A stretch of 36,382 bases of DNA. Origin: a virus. A program made the position numbers and the translations under genes. Shown here piece after piece: positions 4,101-32,543 of this stretch; positions within the stretch are counted from its first letter, which is position 1, and every line of letters starts with the position of its first letter. The stretch lies in the IMG/VR virus record IMGVR_UViG_3300026512_000039, positions 1 to 36,382 of that record; one strand, given 5' to 3'. The notes beneath the pieces are model-generated. The model was not told the origin of the DNA. It was given only the letters and a program-made list of their open reading frames with translations, and did no database searches.

Positions 4101-6318
4101 TATTTATAACTCAATTAAAAACTTGCAAAGGTTTTATCAAAAAGCTGAAAGGCAAAGAAACCTTGAGTTTAAAAGACAGCTTAAAGAAATAAAAAAACAC
4201 TATAAAGATAGCGAAACTGTAGAAAACTTAATAAAGTTTTTTGAAAAATCAATGTATGATATTAACCCGTCAAGAGTTTTTTATTCTCATAGAGACAGAG
4301 GATTGGGAAATGTCTTTATAAGAGTTAGAAACGAAGACGGCAAAGTAATATACAGAAGCGAAAATATGCTTGACCCTTGGGCTATGTTTACGGGCGGAAA
4401 GCGTTATTTAAAAACCACAGAGATAAAGCGTGCAGAGATAGCAAAGAAGTATCCTGAAGACAAAGGTTATACAATAGAGGTTAAGAGTTTAGAACAATCG
4501 GATATAAACAAAGCGGATGTCGGAGATTTATTTGAGTTCTTTTTAGATGTTTTAGATAACGCAGATATAACGTTTAAACAAAAAGACCAAATATTGGGTG
4601 ATATGTATGCTAAATTAAAATCACAAGGCTTTGCGTCAACAACTATAAAAAGAAGTGATAGATATATAGAAGGCTTTAATAAAGATGTTATAGCAAACGC
4701 CGTAGCATACAGAAATAAACTTGATGGATTTTTGAGACACCAAAAGCTTAAAGCATATTTGAATGATTTAGAAGAGGAGCTCTTAACTAATTACAAAGAT
4801 GACAAAACACTTATTAAAGCTTTTAGAAGTGTTAAGAATGAGATGTTACGCAATAAAACAGCAATGGATGTTGTTGTTGGCAAAACAAGAGGTTTAATGT
4901 ATGTTAAGTATATAGCGGGCATTGCAAGACCTGTATTGGTAAATATGTTACAAACGCCTATTATGACAACATCACATCTTATGAATGAAGCAAATATTGG
5001 AATGGCTGAAGCTCACAAAATAACATCAAACGCATTAACTGATTTGCTAAATAACAAATTAAGCGAAAAAGAACAAAAAGTAATGAACGAGATTGAAAAG
5101 CAAGGAGTGTTTGAGCCGCAACATACGAAGTTTGTTTCGGGCAGTGCTGATTATAAAGACGCATTTATTAGAAAATCTATGGATTATTTAAGTTATGGTT
5201 TTTCTAAAAGCGAAACATTAAATAGAAAAATTGCGGCGTTGTCATATATAAGAGTTCATAATGATTTTGATTTTAATCAGTTGGTATATGGAGCAAGAGA
5301 CTTTAGTTATTATACAAACGGAATGTATGGAAATGTCAATTTGCCTATGTGGATGATGGGTAAAGATGGCTTAAAGCAAATAATGAGAGCTGGTTATACA
5401 TTTAAAAGCTATAATCAACAAATGATGATGGGTTTATTGCATTTATATCGTAACAATCCAAAGGCTTTTGCACATTCTATAGGTATGCTAATATTATTTG
5501 GCGGCGTATCAGCGATGCCTTTATTCCAATCGTTATCTGTTGCTTATAGCAAATTAACAGGCAATGACTTAAAACAAGAAATAATAAATAATGTAAATAG
5601 CTGGATTGGCAGTAAAGCAATGTCTGATATTATGTATGGTGGAATATTTTCATTGGTTGGAATAGACTTGTCAAGTTCGCTCATGATAGATGTTCCATTA
5701 TCTGATATAAAATACTCAAGTGATTTTTCGGATTATATAATGACTATGGTTGGTGGAGTATTTTGGTCAACGCTTAAAGATGAGTATAAGGCTTTAACAT
5801 CATTGCGTAATGGAGAATATGTAAAGGCACTATCGTATGGTTTACCTGCTAAATTTATTACATATCCACTTAAAGCTATGCACGATTATAGTATAGGATT
5901 AACATCTAATAATAATATAATTTTACGAGACCCTGTAACAGGTGATGCGATTAAGACTGATGAAGCAGAAATGATATTGCAGGCAATAGGGTTTAATCCA
6001 TTGCGTATATCGGAATATAAACACGCTTTGAATTCATATATAACATTAACAAACTATTATGCAAATATAAAACACAGTTGGAGTGTTGCTTGGCATTTAG
6101 CATACGCAAATCAAGACTATGAAAAAATGAATAAGTTAATAAAAAGAATGCACAAGATAAATAGAGATATAGTAGATAAAGGTTTAGTTGGTATAGTATC
6201 GCCTATTGATTTTAAAAGGATTAGGCGTTATGATGTTGGCAGGACAAATATTCATTTAACTAATTACTTTATTAAAAACAATATTGGAGGAATTTATGGC
6301 AGTAGTAACAACAAATAA
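1198..6318 (+). CDS. Giant internal virion / DNA-ejection-type protein
   Basis: A 1706-aa protein, the largest in the window. By position and size it corresponds to T7 gp16-like internal core proteins that form the ejection channel. The N-terminal about 70 residues are acidic and Thr/Pro-rich. Around residues 135-165 and 235-265 there are Gly/Ala-rich hydrophobic helices. Residues about 300-660 are a Lys/Glu coiled-coil zone. Near residues 1410-1510 there is a hydrophobic stretch followed by a segment like SLVGIDLSSSL, which resembles the C-terminal domain of large phage 'polyvalent' proteins (LPD38-like). I see no lysozyme, transglycosylase or polymerase motif. The next gene starts inside its last 23 bases. 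Virion location is inferred; assignment to a large ejection-type protein is moderately sure. Confidence 0.7.
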   Translation: MDAQIEIIADTTEQTTEPPKPKVTNIDVIPIKSENQEIIQQDEGNGFIGNIVHSIRSLFNLDDSDKYDYLHELAIMEYGNSSPENVNKILDKLSDAGFESAKSDYQAHDVVGNFLEETTVGLYKKPDIRALGFGQALANAVSGFAGLVVGFGASEKMAGEAFKLFTETTKIKDIMPKLRLLTSLEEKYPVFKNALIKAGNGFATYMAVESLVSTAEEQPELYQNIKQAVEAGTVGKIYGSGFSIIDTIKSPIAKGIAGLLLTNAVSKVTTGKFSTLDIKHALQSQDPEAFAQDIMDTLMGLLPVATARIEEFDRKLMKENETRENIIRTKKLMKEFADADINQESILDAIDEVSNYVSKAEEAKDILYDYEYVKPSLENDIDTKDYLNTVDRFFSDIDKQQGILNSGNLEIKLDVLETLAEDKDVLDNVENKDKIVKKINNIKEKINDIKEFENNRLNNISEKIIKQKYKTISDEIYNAVKEIEQKYEETTTDIAENNKIKITDKLLPHKELEKLKFKSKIGEATVWDVFTNGDNVDFVTLRLPTGEKKTFKYSILEDIFKGNNIKELSKKEISFLERLHHPIITSMLKMQQEINNMLQEKYSQYLKKDGTLKKRIAKDVKKKIDKNIKSIEEKYKTKNLFTDNVKETEKTSQKQEQVEPTPQQEYQEIVDEVAKGKNENVNKIKNIKDLLYEEDNNKKNGGSVLWELANAEAGERIATDANAEEWIGIPSSFPDWMPENTRRRAVIDAVLEHIENGTEPKKNATRQWALLDAMQDELERRLGKGKYAPNKESDIDWDNLTDEEWRNIDLIDIFDFGGAMWHTLKRTIADTFGHVTTGREEGMDVSSYWLSTPYQLSRSKNPIAAKTFKKVYDGYLDVVGKVTKVISSIDGLHLSPVKETIKVKYKDNPIVEKVFVDLVNEFDAENTAIKGITKENSKNEYDINDLKEYIKGYAKDKKIELTDEQVNDIYNSIKNLQRFYQKAERQRNLEFKRQLKEIKKHYKDSETVENLIKFFEKSMYDINPSRVFYSHRDRGLGNVFIRVRNEDGKVIYRSENMLDPWAMFTGGKRYLKTTEIKRAEIAKKYPEDKGYTIEVKSLEQSDINKADVGDLFEFFLDVLDNADITFKQKDQILGDMYAKLKSQGFASTTIKRSDRYIEGFNKDVIANAVAYRNKLDGFLRHQKLKAYLNDLEEELLTNYKDDKTLIKAFRSVKNEMLRNKTAMDVVVGKTRGLMYVKYIAGIARPVLVNMLQTPIMTTSHLMNEANIGMAEAHKITSNALTDLLNNKLSEKEQKVMNEIEKQGVFEPQHTKFVSGSADYKDAFIRKSMDYLSYGFSKSETLNRKIAALSYIRVHNDFDFNQLVYGARDFSYYTNGMYGNVNLPMWMMGKDGLKQIMRAGYTFKSYNQQMMMGLLHLYRNNPKAFAHSIGMLILFGGVSAMPLFQSLSVAYSKLTGNDLKQEIINNVNSWIGSKAMSDIMYGGIFSLVGIDLSSSLMIDVPLSDIKYSSDFSDYIMTMVGGVFWSTLKDEYKALTSLRNGEYVKALSYGLPAKFITYPLKAMHDYSIGLTSNNNIILRDPVTGDAIKTDEAEMILQAIGFNPLRISEYKHALNSYITLTNYYANIKHSWSVAWHLAYANQDYEKMNKLIKRMHKINRDIVDKGLVGIVSPIDFKRIRRYDVGRTNIHLTNYFIKNNIGGIYGSSNNK

Positions 6319-17478: not shown

Positions 17479-18255
17479 TTAAAACGATATTTCGTCTAAC
17501 ATTTTTATGAAACGAGCATACCATTTACCTGTTTTATCTTCTTGTATAACTATATTTTGCAATTTCTTAACAATTGTATTTTCTGTATCTTTTGCAAAAT
17601 AATAAGTCCATTTTCCTTTTTTATCTTTCTTTATAATAGCATTTTCTAATTTTTGTATATCTACATTTGGAATAGTTTTTGCAAAATAATAACACCATTC
17701 TCCTGTTTTATCTTTTTCAATTACTACATTTTGCAATTTTTTAATGTCTGCTCCTTTAATATCTTTTGCAAAACGATAAATCCATCTTCCATCTTTATCC
17801 TTTTTAATTACTGCATTTTGTAATTTTTTTATATCTGCATCTGGAATATATCTTGCAAACCAATAACACCATTTTGCTTCTTTTTCTATTACTGCATTTT
17901 GTAATTTTTTTATATTTGCATTTGGTATATCTTCTGCATAATTATAAACCCATTCACCTGTCTTATCATATTTAATCAATTCATCTAAAGTTTCCACTTT
18001 TCTTATTACTTTTATTTTATCACCAACTGCTTTATCATTATATTTATCAACGACGTTGATGTCTACAAGTGCATACTCTGTGCTTTCTGATACAGGATAA
18101 TAATCTACAGTTTCTGATATATCGAAATTTGCTGATGCGTGAAAACCGTATTCACATATTTTAACTTGTTCTTTTGGTATCTCATAAGTTTTACCGACTT
18201 CATATTGAAATCCTTTACATACTAACCCTTTATCAAATGCTTTAATGGTAATCAT
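17479..18255 (-). CDS. DUF7666-like domain plus tandem 29-residue repeats
   Basis: 258 aa. Residues about 1-85 match a small phage domain with LVCKGFQYEVGKTYEI, then VKICEYGFHASANFDISETV and YYPVSESTEYALV (DUF7666-like). Residues 97-239 are five repeats of about 29 residues (97-125, 126-152, 153-181, 182-210, 211-239; the second is 27) with consensus DKxGxWxYxFAKxI, then ADIKKLQNAVIEK, followed by a partial sixth. The repeats should stack as a helical solenoid, a protein-binding surface. The protein ends LDEISF, similar to the SSB-type tail of the primase encoded just upstream. Its target is unknown; an early host-takeover or defence-blocking role is a guess. Confidence 0.6.
   Translation of the reverse strand: MITIKAFDKGLVCKGFQYEVGKTYEIPKEQVKICEYGFHASANFDISETVDYYPVSESTEYALVDINVVDKYNDKAVGDKIKVIRKVETLDELIKYDKTGEWVYNYAEDIPNANIKKLQNAVIEKEAKWCYWFARYIPDADIKKLQNAVIKKDKDGRWIYRFAKDIKGADIKKLQNVVIEKDKTGEWCYYFAKTIPNVDIQKLENAIIKKDKKGKWTYYFAKDTENTIVKKLQNIVIQEDKTGKWYARFIKMLDEISF
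17482..17967 (-). repeat. Coding tandem repeats of 87 bp
   Basis: DNA encoding the 29-residue repeats of the preceding gene. Units are diverged at the DNA level but keep AAxTTGCAxAATGxxxTxAT-type segments encoding KKLQNAVI. One unit is 6 bp shorter. Confidence 0.75.
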
Positions 18256-24887: not shown

Positions 24888-24916
24888 AATATAACACTAT
24901 TTATTTAGTTTGTCAA
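24888..24916 (-). promoter_or_regulatory. Leftward early promoter (sigma70 type)
   Basis: On the minus strand TTGACA (plus 24911-24916) is followed after exactly 17 bp by TATATT (plus 24888-24893). It points into the early operon, with the first ATG at 24857. A perfect -35 and near-perfect -10 imply immediate recognition by host RNA polymerase, as expected for early genes. TGCAC/GTGCA boxes begin 30 bp upstream of the -35. Confidence 0.85.
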
Positions 24917-24974
24917 GTGTTTTTTTGTTTTTTTTGAAATTTTTCTGTGCAGGGTATCTTTTTTTAGTTGCACA

Positions 24975-25120
24975 AAAAATAGATAAAGGTTAATAAAATA
25001 AAATATTGTAAAATAAATGAAATGAAGGTTAGTAAAAATGTAAAATAAAAGTAGTTGATATTTGTTAAAATAAAATTAATAAAATAAAAGAATATGAAAT
25101 AAGTTAAATAAATGTTTATT
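24975..25120. other. Very AT-rich stretch between box clusters
   Basis: About 145 bp made almost only of A and T with a few G, with recurring AAAATAAA words. It lies between the first two boxes and the 25125 cluster. An easily melted stretch next to iteron-like boxes is the layout of a replication origin unwinding element; this is inference. Confidence 0.45.
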
Positions 25121-25199
25121 TTTTGTGCAGGCTGTGCAGGGTTGTGCAACCTACCTTGCACATAGAAAAACCGCATAGAGACAAGGAAAATGGGGATTG

Positions 25200-25320
25200 T
25201 GTAAGAAATAGAGAATATATTCCTTTAGTTTGTAGAAAAGAAAAATAGAAATAGTGTATATAGGATAGAATAGAGAGAGGGAAAAAAGAGAGAAAAAAAG
25301 GGAAAAGGTATAGGAAAAAC
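25200..25320. other. Purine-rich tract
   Basis: About 120 bp in which the plus strand is mostly A and G (for example GAATAGAGAGAGGGAAAAAA near 25267-25286, and AAAAAAAGGGAAAAGG), separating the left and right box clusters. No gene is visible. It could matter for DNA structure (triplex, R-loop) or simply be compositional drift in a non-coding region. Confidence 0.4.
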
Positions 25321-25560
25321 CCTGTTTTGCTGCACAAAATACTATATATTGCCAAAAAATCCTATTCTGACGCCGTTTTCGGTGTGTAGTTTTTGTGCAA
25401 CCTACCCTGCACAACCCTGCACACATTGCACAAAATATTGCACACTTTTCATTTTTTGTTGTTTCTATGCCGTTTTTCGCTGTGCAGGGTTTGTGTATAT
25501 TTTGTGCAGTGTTTTGTGCACACCCTGCACACCCTGCACACATTGCACAGCTTGTACATT

Positions 25561-28194: not shown

Positions 28195-28671
28195 ATGAGT
28201 TGTCCTTTTAATAGAGATGTATATATTGGAGACCCATTTTTAGATTGGTTAGGTTCAACAACAGGTAAACCGTTAAGTTATTATGAAGGTAGATATAAAA
28301 AGAAAAAAACAGAAACAACAAATACTACATCAAAGCCTGAAGGTGTTACAGTTTCAACAAATGATACATCAGGTAGTTGGGGTTTTACTTCACAAGGTGC
28401 AAATATAAATTATAGTAATACTGCAAATAATAATGTGTCAAATAATAATTATAGTATGTTTAGAAGTAGAAATGCTAATACTAATACTAATATCAATAAT
28501 AAAGGTTCACTAACACATAATGTTTTTAAGAGTGGATATAAGAAATTACCTTTGCCAAATTATAATATGAAAAAATTACCATTACCAAATTATAATATGA
28601 AAAGATTACCATTACCAAATTATAATATGAAAAGATTACCTTTGCCATACACTATAGGTGGTAAACAATGA
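28195..28671 (+). CDS. Asn/Thr-rich protein ending in decapeptide repeats
   Basis: 158 aa, not recognised. Starts MSCPFNRDVYIGDPFLDWLG; the middle is Thr/Ser/Asn-rich and probably disordered. The C-terminus is KLPLPNYNMK repeated three full times plus a partial fourth (KLPLPNYNMK, KLPLPNYNMK, RLPLPNYNMK, RLPLPY). The neighbour upstream contains KKLPKP, so the two may be related and bind the same partner. AGGAGG lies 6-7 nt before the ATG; its end overlaps the portal start by 4 nt (ATGA). A head-associated tether is a guess from context. Confidence 0.55.
   Translation: MSCPFNRDVYIGDPFLDWLGSTTGKPLSYYEGRYKKKKTETTNTTSKPEGVTVSTNDTSGSWGFTSQGANINYSNTANNNVSNNNYSMFRSRNANTNTNINNKGSLTHNVFKSGYKKLPLPNYNMKKLPLPNYNMKRLPLPNYNMKRLPLPYTIGGKQ
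28543..28656 (+). repeat. 30-bp coding tandem repeats (3.8 copies)
   Basis: Units at 28543-28572, 28573-28602, 28603-28632 and partial 28633-28656, nearly identical (AAATTACC, then TTGCCAAAT or TACCAAAT, then TATAATATGAAA), encoding the KLPLPNYNMK decapeptides. The high DNA identity suggests recent expansion, and copy number may vary between isolates. Confidence 0.85.
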
Positions 28672-30533: not shown

Positions 30534-31326
30534 TCCGAATGATGGCGGTGGTAATGGTAATGTATCTCCACAGCAAATATCTCCAGAACAAATATTTGGA
30601 GAATATGCAAATGAACCAAGCATACAGAAGTTTAAAAATCCGCAGGATTTAGCGAAAAGTTATCTTAATCTTGAAAAGCTTTTAGGTAAACAGCGTATAC
30701 CGATACCAGAAAAACCAGAAGATTATGAGGTAGTTTATGATGCTTTGGGTAGACCACAAGACCCAAATGAGTATGAAATACCCGAAGTATTAGCTAAAGA
30801 AATATATCAAGGTAACGATGAAGCATTAAATAATCTTAAAGGTATGTTGCATAAATTAGGTTTAAACAAGCAACAGGCAAGTGAGTTGTTAAATTGGTAT
30901 ACGGAAGATACTATTGCGGCAAAGCAACAGTATGAAGCAATGGCTAATCAAGAAATGGAAAAAACTGTTCAAGCATTGCAACAGGAATGGGGAGATGCGT
31001 TTGAAGAGCGTATGCAGAAGGCTTCAGCTGTTTACAATCAGTTTAGTGATGAAACAAAAGCATTGATAGACCAAAGCGGATTGGGTAGAAATAAAGAGTT
31101 TATAGATTTTATGTATAAAATGGGTAATTTAACTATCGATGGCAATAACTTTATAGACAATCCGAATTCATTACAGATTAAGGTTGAAGATGCTAAAGCA
31201 GAGTTGTCAAGAATAATGGGTGATAGAAATCATCCGTATTACGATAAGTATCACCCAGAACATAATAACGCAGTTAAGGCAGTAGAAGATTTATATAAAA
31301 TAATTTATGGCAAAGAAAATACTTGA
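30481..31326 (+). CDS. Capsid scaffolding protein
   Basis: 281 aa, acidic. N-terminal 40 residues are Pro/Thr/Asn/Gly-rich and disordered; the middle holds FKNPQDLAKSYLNLEKLLGK, IPEKPEDYEVVYDALGRP then DPNEYEIPE, and a long helical zone (AANQEMEKTVQALQQEWGDA-like) with GNLTIDGNN after it. This is the usual scaffold of phages with portal-scaffold-capsid order. It would guide assembly of the prohead and be removed before packaging. GGAGG lies about 10 nt before the ATG. Its TGA is part of the following promoter's -35. Confidence 0.85.
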   Translation: MEADNPQLQEPTTTTENSPNDGGGNGNVSPQQISPEQIFGEYANEPSIQKFKNPQDLAKSYLNLEKLLGKQRIPIPEKPEDYEVVYDALGRPQDPNEYEIPEVLAKEIYQGNDEALNNLKGMLHKLGLNKQQASELLNWYTEDTIAAKQQYEAMANQEMEKTVQALQQEWGDAFEERMQKASAVYNQFSDETKALIDQSGLGRNKEFIDFMYKMGNLTIDGNNFIDNPNSLQIKVEDAKAELSRIMGDRNHPYYDKYHPEHNNAVKAVEDLYKIIYGKENT

Positions 31327-31354
31327 CAACACAAATAGAATTTTATAGTATAAT
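31323..31354 (+). promoter_or_regulatory. Intergenic promoter after scaffold gene
   Basis: TTGACA (31323-31328) with two possible -10 elements: TAGTAT (31346-31351) at 17-bp spacing, or TATAAT (31349-31354) at 20 bp. The -35 overlaps the scaffold stop codon. Transcription would start near 31358-31362 and meet a strong terminator about 100 bases on. Confidence 0.65.
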
Positions 31355-31359
31355 TATAG

Positions 31360-31462
31360 ATTTAGGCTTTTCCTTTTCCTTTTCCTTTTCATTAACCCTC
31401 GGTAGCACCGATTTCTTGTCGTAACGCCTCCGTAGGCGGGAGAAATTCCCGCCTATTTTTTT
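31360..31462 (+). ncRNA. Predicted small RNA of about 100 nt
   Basis: The unit between the promoter at 31323 and the terminator at 31433-31462 has no coding frame of note. It begins with a 23-nt pyrimidine tract of TTTTCC repeats (31368-31390), then a small hairpin (CGGT-AGC-ACCG), then CGCCT/AGGCG, which competes with the terminator stem. It may be a discrete phage small RNA or an attenuator leader. CCTTTT is complementary to the AAAAGG part of many Shine-Dalgarno sites in this genome. Confidence 0.5.
31433..31462 (+). terminator. Strong intrinsic terminator before the capsid gene
   Basis: TAGGCGGGA (31433-31441) pairs perfectly with TCCCGCCTA (31447-31455) around the loop GAAAT, followed by seven T (31456-31462). 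It lies between the scaffold and capsid genes, 12 bp before the -35 of the capsid promoter, and so insulates capsid expression from the upstream transcript, partly or fully. Confidence 0.92.
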
Positions 31463-31473
31463 GTATTATATAC

Positions 31474-31502
31474 TTGACAAAGTAATTTATTTGATATATA
31501 CT
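31474..31502 (+). promoter_or_regulatory. Capsid gene promoter (sigma70 type)
   Basis: TTGACA (31474-31479), 17-bp spacer, TATACT (31497-31502). Predicted start near 31509. A dedicated near-consensus promoter for the capsid gene would give the high dose needed for the major virion protein. Confidence 0.9.
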
Positions 31503-31508
31503 ATATGT

Positions 31509-31649
31509 AGTAAACTATTGTAGGATAACTGTATCCTCTACAGCCCTACATTATTTCGGTTTACTGTTAGCAGACCTTCCATAGTGAAGACAATCTGTAG
31601 GTATAGGCACTATGTCTAACTACAAAAAATAAAATAAGGAGATTGTCTT
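31509..31649 (+). promoter_or_regulatory. Structured 5' leader of the capsid mRNA
   Basis: About 140 nt. First domain: three nested helices, AGTAAAC/GTTTACT (31509-31515 with 31559-31565), TGTAGG/CCTACA (31519-31524 with 31545-31550) and CTGTA/TACAG (31529-31533 with 31539-31543). Second domain: CATAGTG/CACTATG (31580-31586 with 31608-31614). The loop of this second helix contains AAGACAATCT (31587-31596), the exact complement of AGATTGTCTT (31640-31649), which runs from the end of the Shine-Dalgarno AAGGAG (31636-31641) to the base before the ATG. The leader can therefore cover its own ribosome-binding site. Confidence 0.7.
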
Positions 31650-32543
31650 ATGGGTTATATTGATACCACGTTTGTAAAACAGTATTCCGATAATATAATG
31701 TTTGCAGTTCAGCAAAAGGGTTCGAGATTTAGGGGTGCTGTTAGGGAAGAGGTTTTGAGAGGCGAAGAGGGATTCTTTGATACCATCTCAAGTGTATCAG
31801 CCGCACAGGTAACTGATGATTTTACAGCTGGGAATATGCATCCAACGACTGTTTATACTGATACAGAATTTACGAGAAGAAGAGTTTCTCAAGTATTTTT
31901 GAGATGGGCAGATTTAATTGAGAGTAAAGATGTTGCAAGAATGCTTGTTGACCCAACGTCGCATTACGTTCAGGCTGGTTCTTGGGCTATCACAAGGGGT
32001 TTAGATGACCTTATTATAGCCGCCGCAACAGGAACAGCTTATGCTGGCAAGACAGGAACAACAGCCGTTTCTTTGCCATCAAGTAATATAATTACTGATG
32101 GTGGAAAAGGTATGACTATTGATAAGTTGATACAGGCTAAAGAAATACTTGACGCCGCAGATGTTGACCCTGAAGAACCAAGATTTTTAGCAATGACTTC
32201 AAGACAGTTTAGTGATTTGCTAAAAACTACAGAAGTAACGAGTGCTGATTATGATACAGTTAAAGCTCTTGTTAGAGGAGAGATAAATACATTTTTGGGC
32301 TTTACGTTTATTAGAAGTGAGAGATTAGCTACCAAGACAGCAGAAGATACGAAAGGCACAGATAATATTTGTTTTGCCTGGACGTATGAAGGCTTGTTAC
32401 TTGCTATGACCGAAGCACCGAAAGTTAGAGTAACAGAGAACCCAGAGAGGAACTTTGCAACGGAAGTATTTATTGAGATAGGTGCTGGTGCAACAAGGAT
32501 GGATGAAAGAAGGGTGGTTGAAATAGATTGCGAGAGACTATAG
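31650..32543 (+). CDS. Major capsid protein
   Basis: 297 aa. Matches the BPP-1 (Bbp17)-type major capsid family, an HK97-fold group: GYIDTTFVKQYSDNIMFAVQ at the start, RFRGAVREEVLRGEEGFFDT, RRVSQVFLRWADLIESKDVA, then AGSWAITRGLDDLIIAAATG, ILDAADVDPEEPRFLAMTSR, and INTFLGFTFIRSERL near the end, closing RMDERRVVEIDCERL. It forms the icosahedral shell with the scaffold encoded just upstream. AAGGAG lies 8 nt before the ATG and may be hidden in the leader structure. Own promoter and upstream terminator indicate separate high-level expression. Confidence 0.93.
   Translation: MGYIDTTFVKQYSDNIMFAVQQKGSRFRGAVREEVLRGEEGFFDTISSVSAAQVTDDFTAGNMHPTTVYTDTEFTRRRVSQVFLRWADLIESKDVARMLVDPTSHYVQAGSWAITRGLDDLIIAAATGTAYAGKTGTTAVSLPSSNIITDGGKGMTIDKLIQAKEILDAADVDPEEPRFLAMTSRQFSDLLKTTEVTSADYDTVKALVRGEINTFLGFTFIRSERLATKTAEDTKGTDNICFAWTYEGLLLAMTEAPKVRVTENPERNFATEVFIEIGAGATRMDERRVVEIDCERL

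Follow-up and report, generated by a model that had tools for sequence, protein, structure and literature searches.

Genes and signals around the capsid gene

The window (the whole stretch of DNA analyzed) is a virus record of 36,382 bases, in which the late genes run from terminase through portal, a small ORF, scaffold-type protein, and capsid to the tail tubes. The capsid protein of the window has at most 47% identity with pelagiphage capsid proteins (e.g., those of Greip or HTVC010P). The capsid gene and the features upstream of it are the following.

31432-31463, plus strand: intrinsic terminator that follows the scaffold-type gene and precedes the capsid promoter (11-pair stem GTAGGCGGGAGAAATTCCCGCCTAT, then a T run)
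31474-31502, plus strand: promoter of the sigma-70 type for the capsid mRNA, TTGACA-17-TATACT
31509-31565, plus strand: outer helix AGTAAAC (31509-31515)/GTTTACT (31559-31565) enclosing hairpin 1 (minimum free energy fold)
31519-31550, plus strand: hairpin 1, TGTAGG-[ATAA 31525-31528]-CTGTA(TCCTC)TACAG-[C31544]-CCTACA (best-scoring site of the window)
31570-31598, plus strand: hairpin 2, GCAGA-[C31575]-CTTC(CATAGT)GAAG-[ACAA 31590-31593]-TCTGT (loop-motif search)
31587-31596, plus strand: anti-start segment AAGACAATCT, also 3′ strand of hairpin 2 (exact complement of 31640-31649)
31636-31649, plus strand: Shine-Dalgarno AAGGAG (31636-31641) and spacer, of which 31640-31649 pairs with 31587-31596
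31650-32543, plus strand: gene of the major capsid protein, 297 amino acids (PHROG 3437 major head protein, E 6.5e-78)

The promoter is well spaced, as the earlier note had it, and the RNA start is predicted near 31508-31510. In the window, the terminator sets the capsid promoter apart from the upstream genes; this terminator is kept in L001, the single close relative available for comparison (capsid 97% identical). From the end of the −10 box to hairpin 1 there are 9-16 nt in many relatives, and likewise in the window. A sigma-70-type promoter a few nucleotides before hairpin 1 is found in the window, in phages VP2, K291, and ZP6, and in a group of marine contigs (a promoter score of at least 10 was reached in 19/107 in the scan upstream of hairpin 1). 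In those lineages the promoter ends just upstream of hairpin 1 and, therefore, the capsid mRNA would begin with the hairpins. In other lineages, including the pelagiphages, the element lies between genes without a clear promoter.

A second promoter-like site is present at 31323-31351, separated from the strong terminator by about 100 nt that include a tract of TTTTCC repeats. The segment 31323-31463, conserved in L001, could yield a short RNA of ∼110 nt just upstream of the capsid promoter. Repeats occur elsewhere in the window. The region 24900-25560, where the leftward gene block gives way to the rightward one, is dense in copies of TGTGCAGGGT/ACCCTGCACA, both direct and inverted, which are iteron-like (origin or regulatory region). 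At 28536-28647, a 30-bp tandem repeat encodes KLPLPNYNMK-type repeats in a small ORF of the structural region and, at 17520-17967, 87/174-bp tandem repeats lie within the minus-strand ORF 17479-18255 (a repeat protein).

Two hairpins with the same internal loop

Hairpins 1 and 2 carry one type of asymmetric internal loop, with four nucleotides AYAA facing a single C (a 4×1 loop, AYAA/C). In hairpin 1 the loop strand is on the 5′ side (ATAA) and, in hairpin 2, on the 3′ side (ACAA). None of 20,000 shuffles of the window leader contained two sites scoring at least 8; the total folding energy of the leader is ordinary (z −1.71). The nested three-helix arm described previously is confirmed, with the helices AGTAAAC/GTTTACT, TGTAGG/CCTACA, and CTGTA/TACAG all present. 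What had escaped that first description is the internal-loop motif, which is present twice and of which 31570-31598 forms one copy.

In the leader region, L001 differs from the window at positions 31507, 31570, 31585, and 31628, and the outer helix 31509-31565 is identical. The change G to A at 31570 turns a G.U pair into an A-U pair in hairpin 2, a hairpin with more support than CATAGTG/CACTATG. The change T to A at 31585 disrupts the pairing of CATAGTG (31580-31586) with CACTATG (31608-31614), which the earlier note had taken as the second hairpin; the letters are complementary in the window, but as an arm of a switch this hairpin was rejected. It is retained solely as a possible pseudoknot, in which the loop CATAGT of hairpin 2 could pair with ACTATG at 31609-31614 (five pairs are left in L001).

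The loop motif in the leaders of related capsid genes

The comparison was extended to 135 non-redundant capsid leaders, collected from capsid relatives in viral contigs and in cultured phages. In a letter-blind count of all 4×1 loops in these leaders, three combinations stand out: ATAA/C in 30 leaders (0.50 expected), ACAA/C in 27 (0.17 expected), and GTAG/T in 27 (0.00 expected), with the next combination in 5. Counts close to background were obtained when the loop letters were permuted or the opposite base was replaced (controls on the first 68 leaders). At least one AYAA/C or GUAG/U hairpin is present in 109/135 leaders (7.7 in dinucleotide shuffles) and at least two in 62/135 (0.1 in dinucleotide shuffles), counts that are not of independent events, as the leaders share phylogeny. 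The density of sites is 4.69/kb in the capsid leaders versus 0.224/kb in the rest of the loci, i.e., 21 times higher.

In 58 of the 62 leaders with two sites, both loops are of the same type, and the type switches at least six times on the capsid tree. The alternation between AYAA/C and GUAG/U would be the expected outcome of an exchange of an A+.C for a G.U wobble pair. The loop strand is on the 5′ side in the first hairpin and on the 3′ side in the second in 42/62 leaders, as in the window, and the motif is seen in either strand orientation with spacers of 6-92 nt. The flanking helices vary widely, with 33 distinct outer 3-bp helices.

Complete genomes were scanned with the descriptor: the window, VP2, ZP6, and Baldr have the tandem pair before their capsid genes (Baldr with two further weak pairs), HTVC010P has a single good site at this place, and K291 has none as a pair. 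The window has two same-type 4×1 loops just before a PHROG 3437-type capsid gene and, thus, falls under the definition of the tandem loops. Together, the sequence comparisons establish the two predicted 4×1-loop hairpins as a conserved unit directly upstream of this capsid gene family. The phages in which the pair recurs form a large group and are mostly marine.

By eye, possible extra loop variants, GGCA/C and GCAA/T, are seen at the same places in L057, L060, L062, and L083 (in the last 165 nt before the capsid ATG); GGCA/C has three occurrences versus 0.07 expected. Two of the phages with GUAG/U-type loops, K291 (L325 22085-23140) and ZP6 (L326 22601-23626), have genes annotated as PurZ-type 2-aminoadenylosuccinate synthetase and dATP hydrolase/phosphatase (diaminopurine genomes).

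A covariance model of the leader

In the GTAG subgroup (alignment A7), RNAalifold recovers both loop hairpins and two more hairpins between them, with changes on both sides in 12 of the 24 pairs. A covariance model (R1) was built from this alignment and run on viral contigs preselected by a protein-blind loop pattern. The matches number 46, of which 44 precede an ORF of the capsid family, one is on a contig that ends too early, and one is at chance level. The model finds the leader of Vibrio phage VP2 (5901-5993, E 3.5e-4) and matches K291 at 4674-4763 (E 0.03), plus one chance-level match elsewhere in K291. It reaches also leaders of the AYAA type (L144 and L158, E about 1e-7); L119 is matched as well.

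We did not obtain a match of R1 to the window leader, which is without the two central hairpins of the A7 alignment. The membership of the window is thus based on loop motif and position, not on the model score. In bacterial genomes, matches to the loop pattern occur, none with an R1 score among the matches listed, and a capsid query against bacterial genomes did not find relatives; a cellular origin of the element was thus not seen among them. RNAalifold recovered little structure from group A8, of which the alignment is loose. The larger leaders of A7 and A8 (e.g., L033 1844-1965, L182 1356-1477, L158 1356-1479) have, between the two loop hairpins, a conserved central hairpin with the loop GRAAAGA or similar, then a second hairpin and an A-rich linker (TAAAA...AG).

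The 3′ strand of hairpin 2 can pair with the ribosome-binding site

In the window, AGATTGTCTT at 31640-31649, which runs from the last Shine-Dalgarno bases up to, but not including, the ATG, is the exact 10-nt complement of AAGACAATCT, as the earlier note had pointed out. The pairing is prolonged by GTAG/CTAC (31597-31600/31620-31623), and both anti-start arms are unaltered in L001. An equally strong helix with the start region was obtained in 21/4000 shuffles of the upstream part, and the capsid helix is the strongest among the 34 genes of the window. This segment coincides with the 3′ strand of hairpin 2, at 31587-31597. Because both use the same bases, hairpin 2 and the predicted start-hiding helix are mutually exclusive. 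The idea of two exclusive folds, one of which hides the start, is therefore kept, with 31570-31598 in place of CATAGTG/CACTATG as the competing hairpin.

The same arrangement recurs in L002, L041, L068, L100, and L112 which, with the window, have an anti-start helix of 9-11 pairs, always with the 3′ strand of hairpin 2. In these six leaders, ACAA and the stem that follows pair with the ribosome-binding site, with letters that differ between leaders (e.g., AACTCCAAATG/CATTTGGAGTT in L002). What faces ACAA departs from the single C in L041 and L100 (at one or more bases).

Compensatory changes, by which the folds had been proposed to be checked, occur in the group L102-L114 (alignment A6) in the closing helix (CCCATG/CATGGG vs. 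GCCATG/CATGGC), in hairpin 2, and in the anti-start helix. The whole structure is 96.5% paired, with four pairs changed on both sides; the anti-start helix is 95% paired, with 2/10 pairs changed on both sides, a more modest covariation. Sequence and covariation, thus, support the predicted exclusivity of hairpin 2 and the start-hiding fold.

With standard energies, the start-hiding fold is favored by 6.4 kcal/mol in the window, 5.0 in L001, and 9.6 in L002; in L100, the two folds are equal in energy. Opening of the start would, therefore, need a partner or a kinetic route.

Start-hiding is less widespread than the loops. An anti-start helix at p ≤ 0.05 occurs in 11/135 leaders versus 6.8 expected, so that the switch part is not general, and an anti-start rule for all leaders is not supported. 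As most relatives have tandem loops without a detectable anti-Shine-Dalgarno segment, start-hiding appears as a lineage-specific addition; it is the tandem internal-loop motif, as predicted from sequence, that is common to the capsid family.

A possible switch in the capsid mRNA

The reading that we prefer, with a probability of about 0.5, is that the leader acts in cis as a switch of the capsid mRNA, opened when a partner holds hairpin 2. Here, we infer both the nature of the partner and the direction of the switch. The partner, most likely an RNA-binding protein, would recognize both loops; with hairpin 2 held, the anti-start segment would be occupied and the capsid start open. Without the partner, the leader would drop into the more stable start-hiding fold, with low translation of the capsid protein. 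The occurrence of the loops in either strand orientation and with spacers of 6-92 nt suggests that the partner is probably a protein. Candidates would include the capsid and scaffold proteins, any other protein of the phage, and factors of the host.

A wider version, in which a dedicated protein partner would read the paired AYAA/C or GUAG/U loops as a new class of structured RNA and thereby tie the production of capsid protein to a signal specific to the phage (for instance, how far assembly has proceeded) in a large group of tailed phages, is put forward tentatively. The recurring pair of loops gives a concrete handle for the identification of the partner, and the concerted changes from AYAA/C to GUAG/U constitute a natural specificity experiment.

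Among the alternatives, autogenous feedback would have the capsid or scaffold-type protein bind both loops and lower capsid translation when unassembled protein builds up. The RNA is almost confined to the region upstream of this capsid gene family and tracks the family across diverse relatives, and the joint change of both loops fits a single dimeric binder. However, in the subgroup with an anti-Shine-Dalgarno segment, binding to hairpin 2 would make the start accessible, which is the wrong sign for repression, and no column of the capsid alignment cleanly follows the loop type (with 4-6 independent switches only). We regard such feedback as unlikely.

A kinetic route would dispense with any partner: hairpin 2 would form on the emerging RNA, with the start open on young mRNAs and shut after relaxation to the start-hiding fold. 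Hairpin 2 is finished before the ribosome-binding site is transcribed, and the start-hiding fold of the window, L001, and L002 is more stable by 5-10 kcal/mol, both as such a timer would have it. The conservation of the letters in the internal loops would be left unexplained, as would the loops without an anti-start segment in most relatives, and we consider a timer rather unlikely.

In the window, VP2, K291, ZP6, and many contigs, a sigma-70 transcript has at its 5′ end a pair of neighboring hairpins with unpaired features, which also recalls the put RNAs of phage HK022, where putL lies directly downstream of its promoter PL (PMC9378689). The nascent tandem hairpins would then bind RNA polymerase and block pausing or termination on the late operon, a mechanism for which no phage protein is required. 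But a search for the tandem loop motif in 11.7 kb of HK022 (29000-40751) gave no such site, and identity with put RNA was rejected. The pelagiphage leaders, with the element between genes and no clear promoter, and the overlap with the anti-start segment are not accounted for either, which makes a put-like element quite unlikely.

Still less probable is that the two like loops form the aptamer of a small-molecule riboswitch. The element is compact and conserved, lies in a leader, and has a classical anti-Shine-Dalgarno overlap. Against this stand the lack of a match to Rfam riboswitches, the variable orientation and spacing of the loops (which suggest local recognition by a protein over one binding pocket), and the lack of an obvious metabolite for a capsid gene. 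That the complementarity arose by chance in an AT-rich leader without function, as the unexceptional folding energy by itself could suggest, is contradicted by the comparative data (loop counts, covariation, the helix found in 21/4000 shuffles, and the 44/46 specificity of R1) and is very improbable.

An RNase III site was a further candidate, rejected because the upper stems would mostly have only 2-5 pairs.

Comparison with known systems

At gathering thresholds, Rfam 15 has no family matching the leaders of the window, L002, L005-L007, and 12 further loci, and permissive Rfam scans gave nothing credible. Literature searches in an incomplete library did not find a description of this leader. 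Candidate structured RNAs of phages and viromes have been catalogued in a publication that could list some of these leaders.

In marine phages, manA, wcaG, and PhotoRC-II are structured 5′ leaders (Weinberg et al. 2010, PMC2864571). They belong to metabolic or photosynthetic genes, unlike the capsid gene here, and in Rfam they do not match the capsid leaders. The HK022 put RNA is alike in that a phage transcript bears, at its 5′ end, a pair of neighboring hairpins with internal irregularities; it serves early operons, whereas the present leaders precede a capsid gene. The put RNA acts by binding the zinc-binding domain of the RNA polymerase beta′ subunit, whereby pausing and termination are suppressed.

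The coat-protein operators of single-stranded RNA phages (MS2 type) control the replicase gene and consist of a bulged-A hairpin with a tetraloop. Common to both systems are a capsid-related RNA hairpin and a possible control of translation; the difference lies in the two 4×1 internal loops upstream of the capsid gene itself. If the tentative reading with a dedicated protein partner is true, the leaders would be a counterpart, in dsDNA phages, of the coat-protein operators.

The nearest likeness is to translational leaders that sequester the Shine-Dalgarno (riboswitches and protein-bound leaders), in which a segment of the leader pairs either within an upstream hairpin or with the ribosome-binding site. 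In the window, the segment complementary to the ribosome-binding site is beyond chance and the same segment belongs to the conserved hairpin 2. The present leaders differ by the conserved pair of 4×1 AYAA/C or GUAG/U loops and by the association with a capsid gene of tailed phages. Few products of a phage are made in such abundance as the capsid protein, and regulation by a leader is little described for the capsid genes of tailed DNA phages. With the results of the descriptor scan given above for HTVC010P and K291, the loop pair stands before the capsid gene in pelagiphages (HTVC010P and Baldr), Vibrio phages (VP2 and K291), Alteromonas phage ZP6, and many marine contigs. While hiding of the Shine-Dalgarno by a leader is a principle of a known kind, the loop pair, its association with the capsid gene, and its spread appear new.
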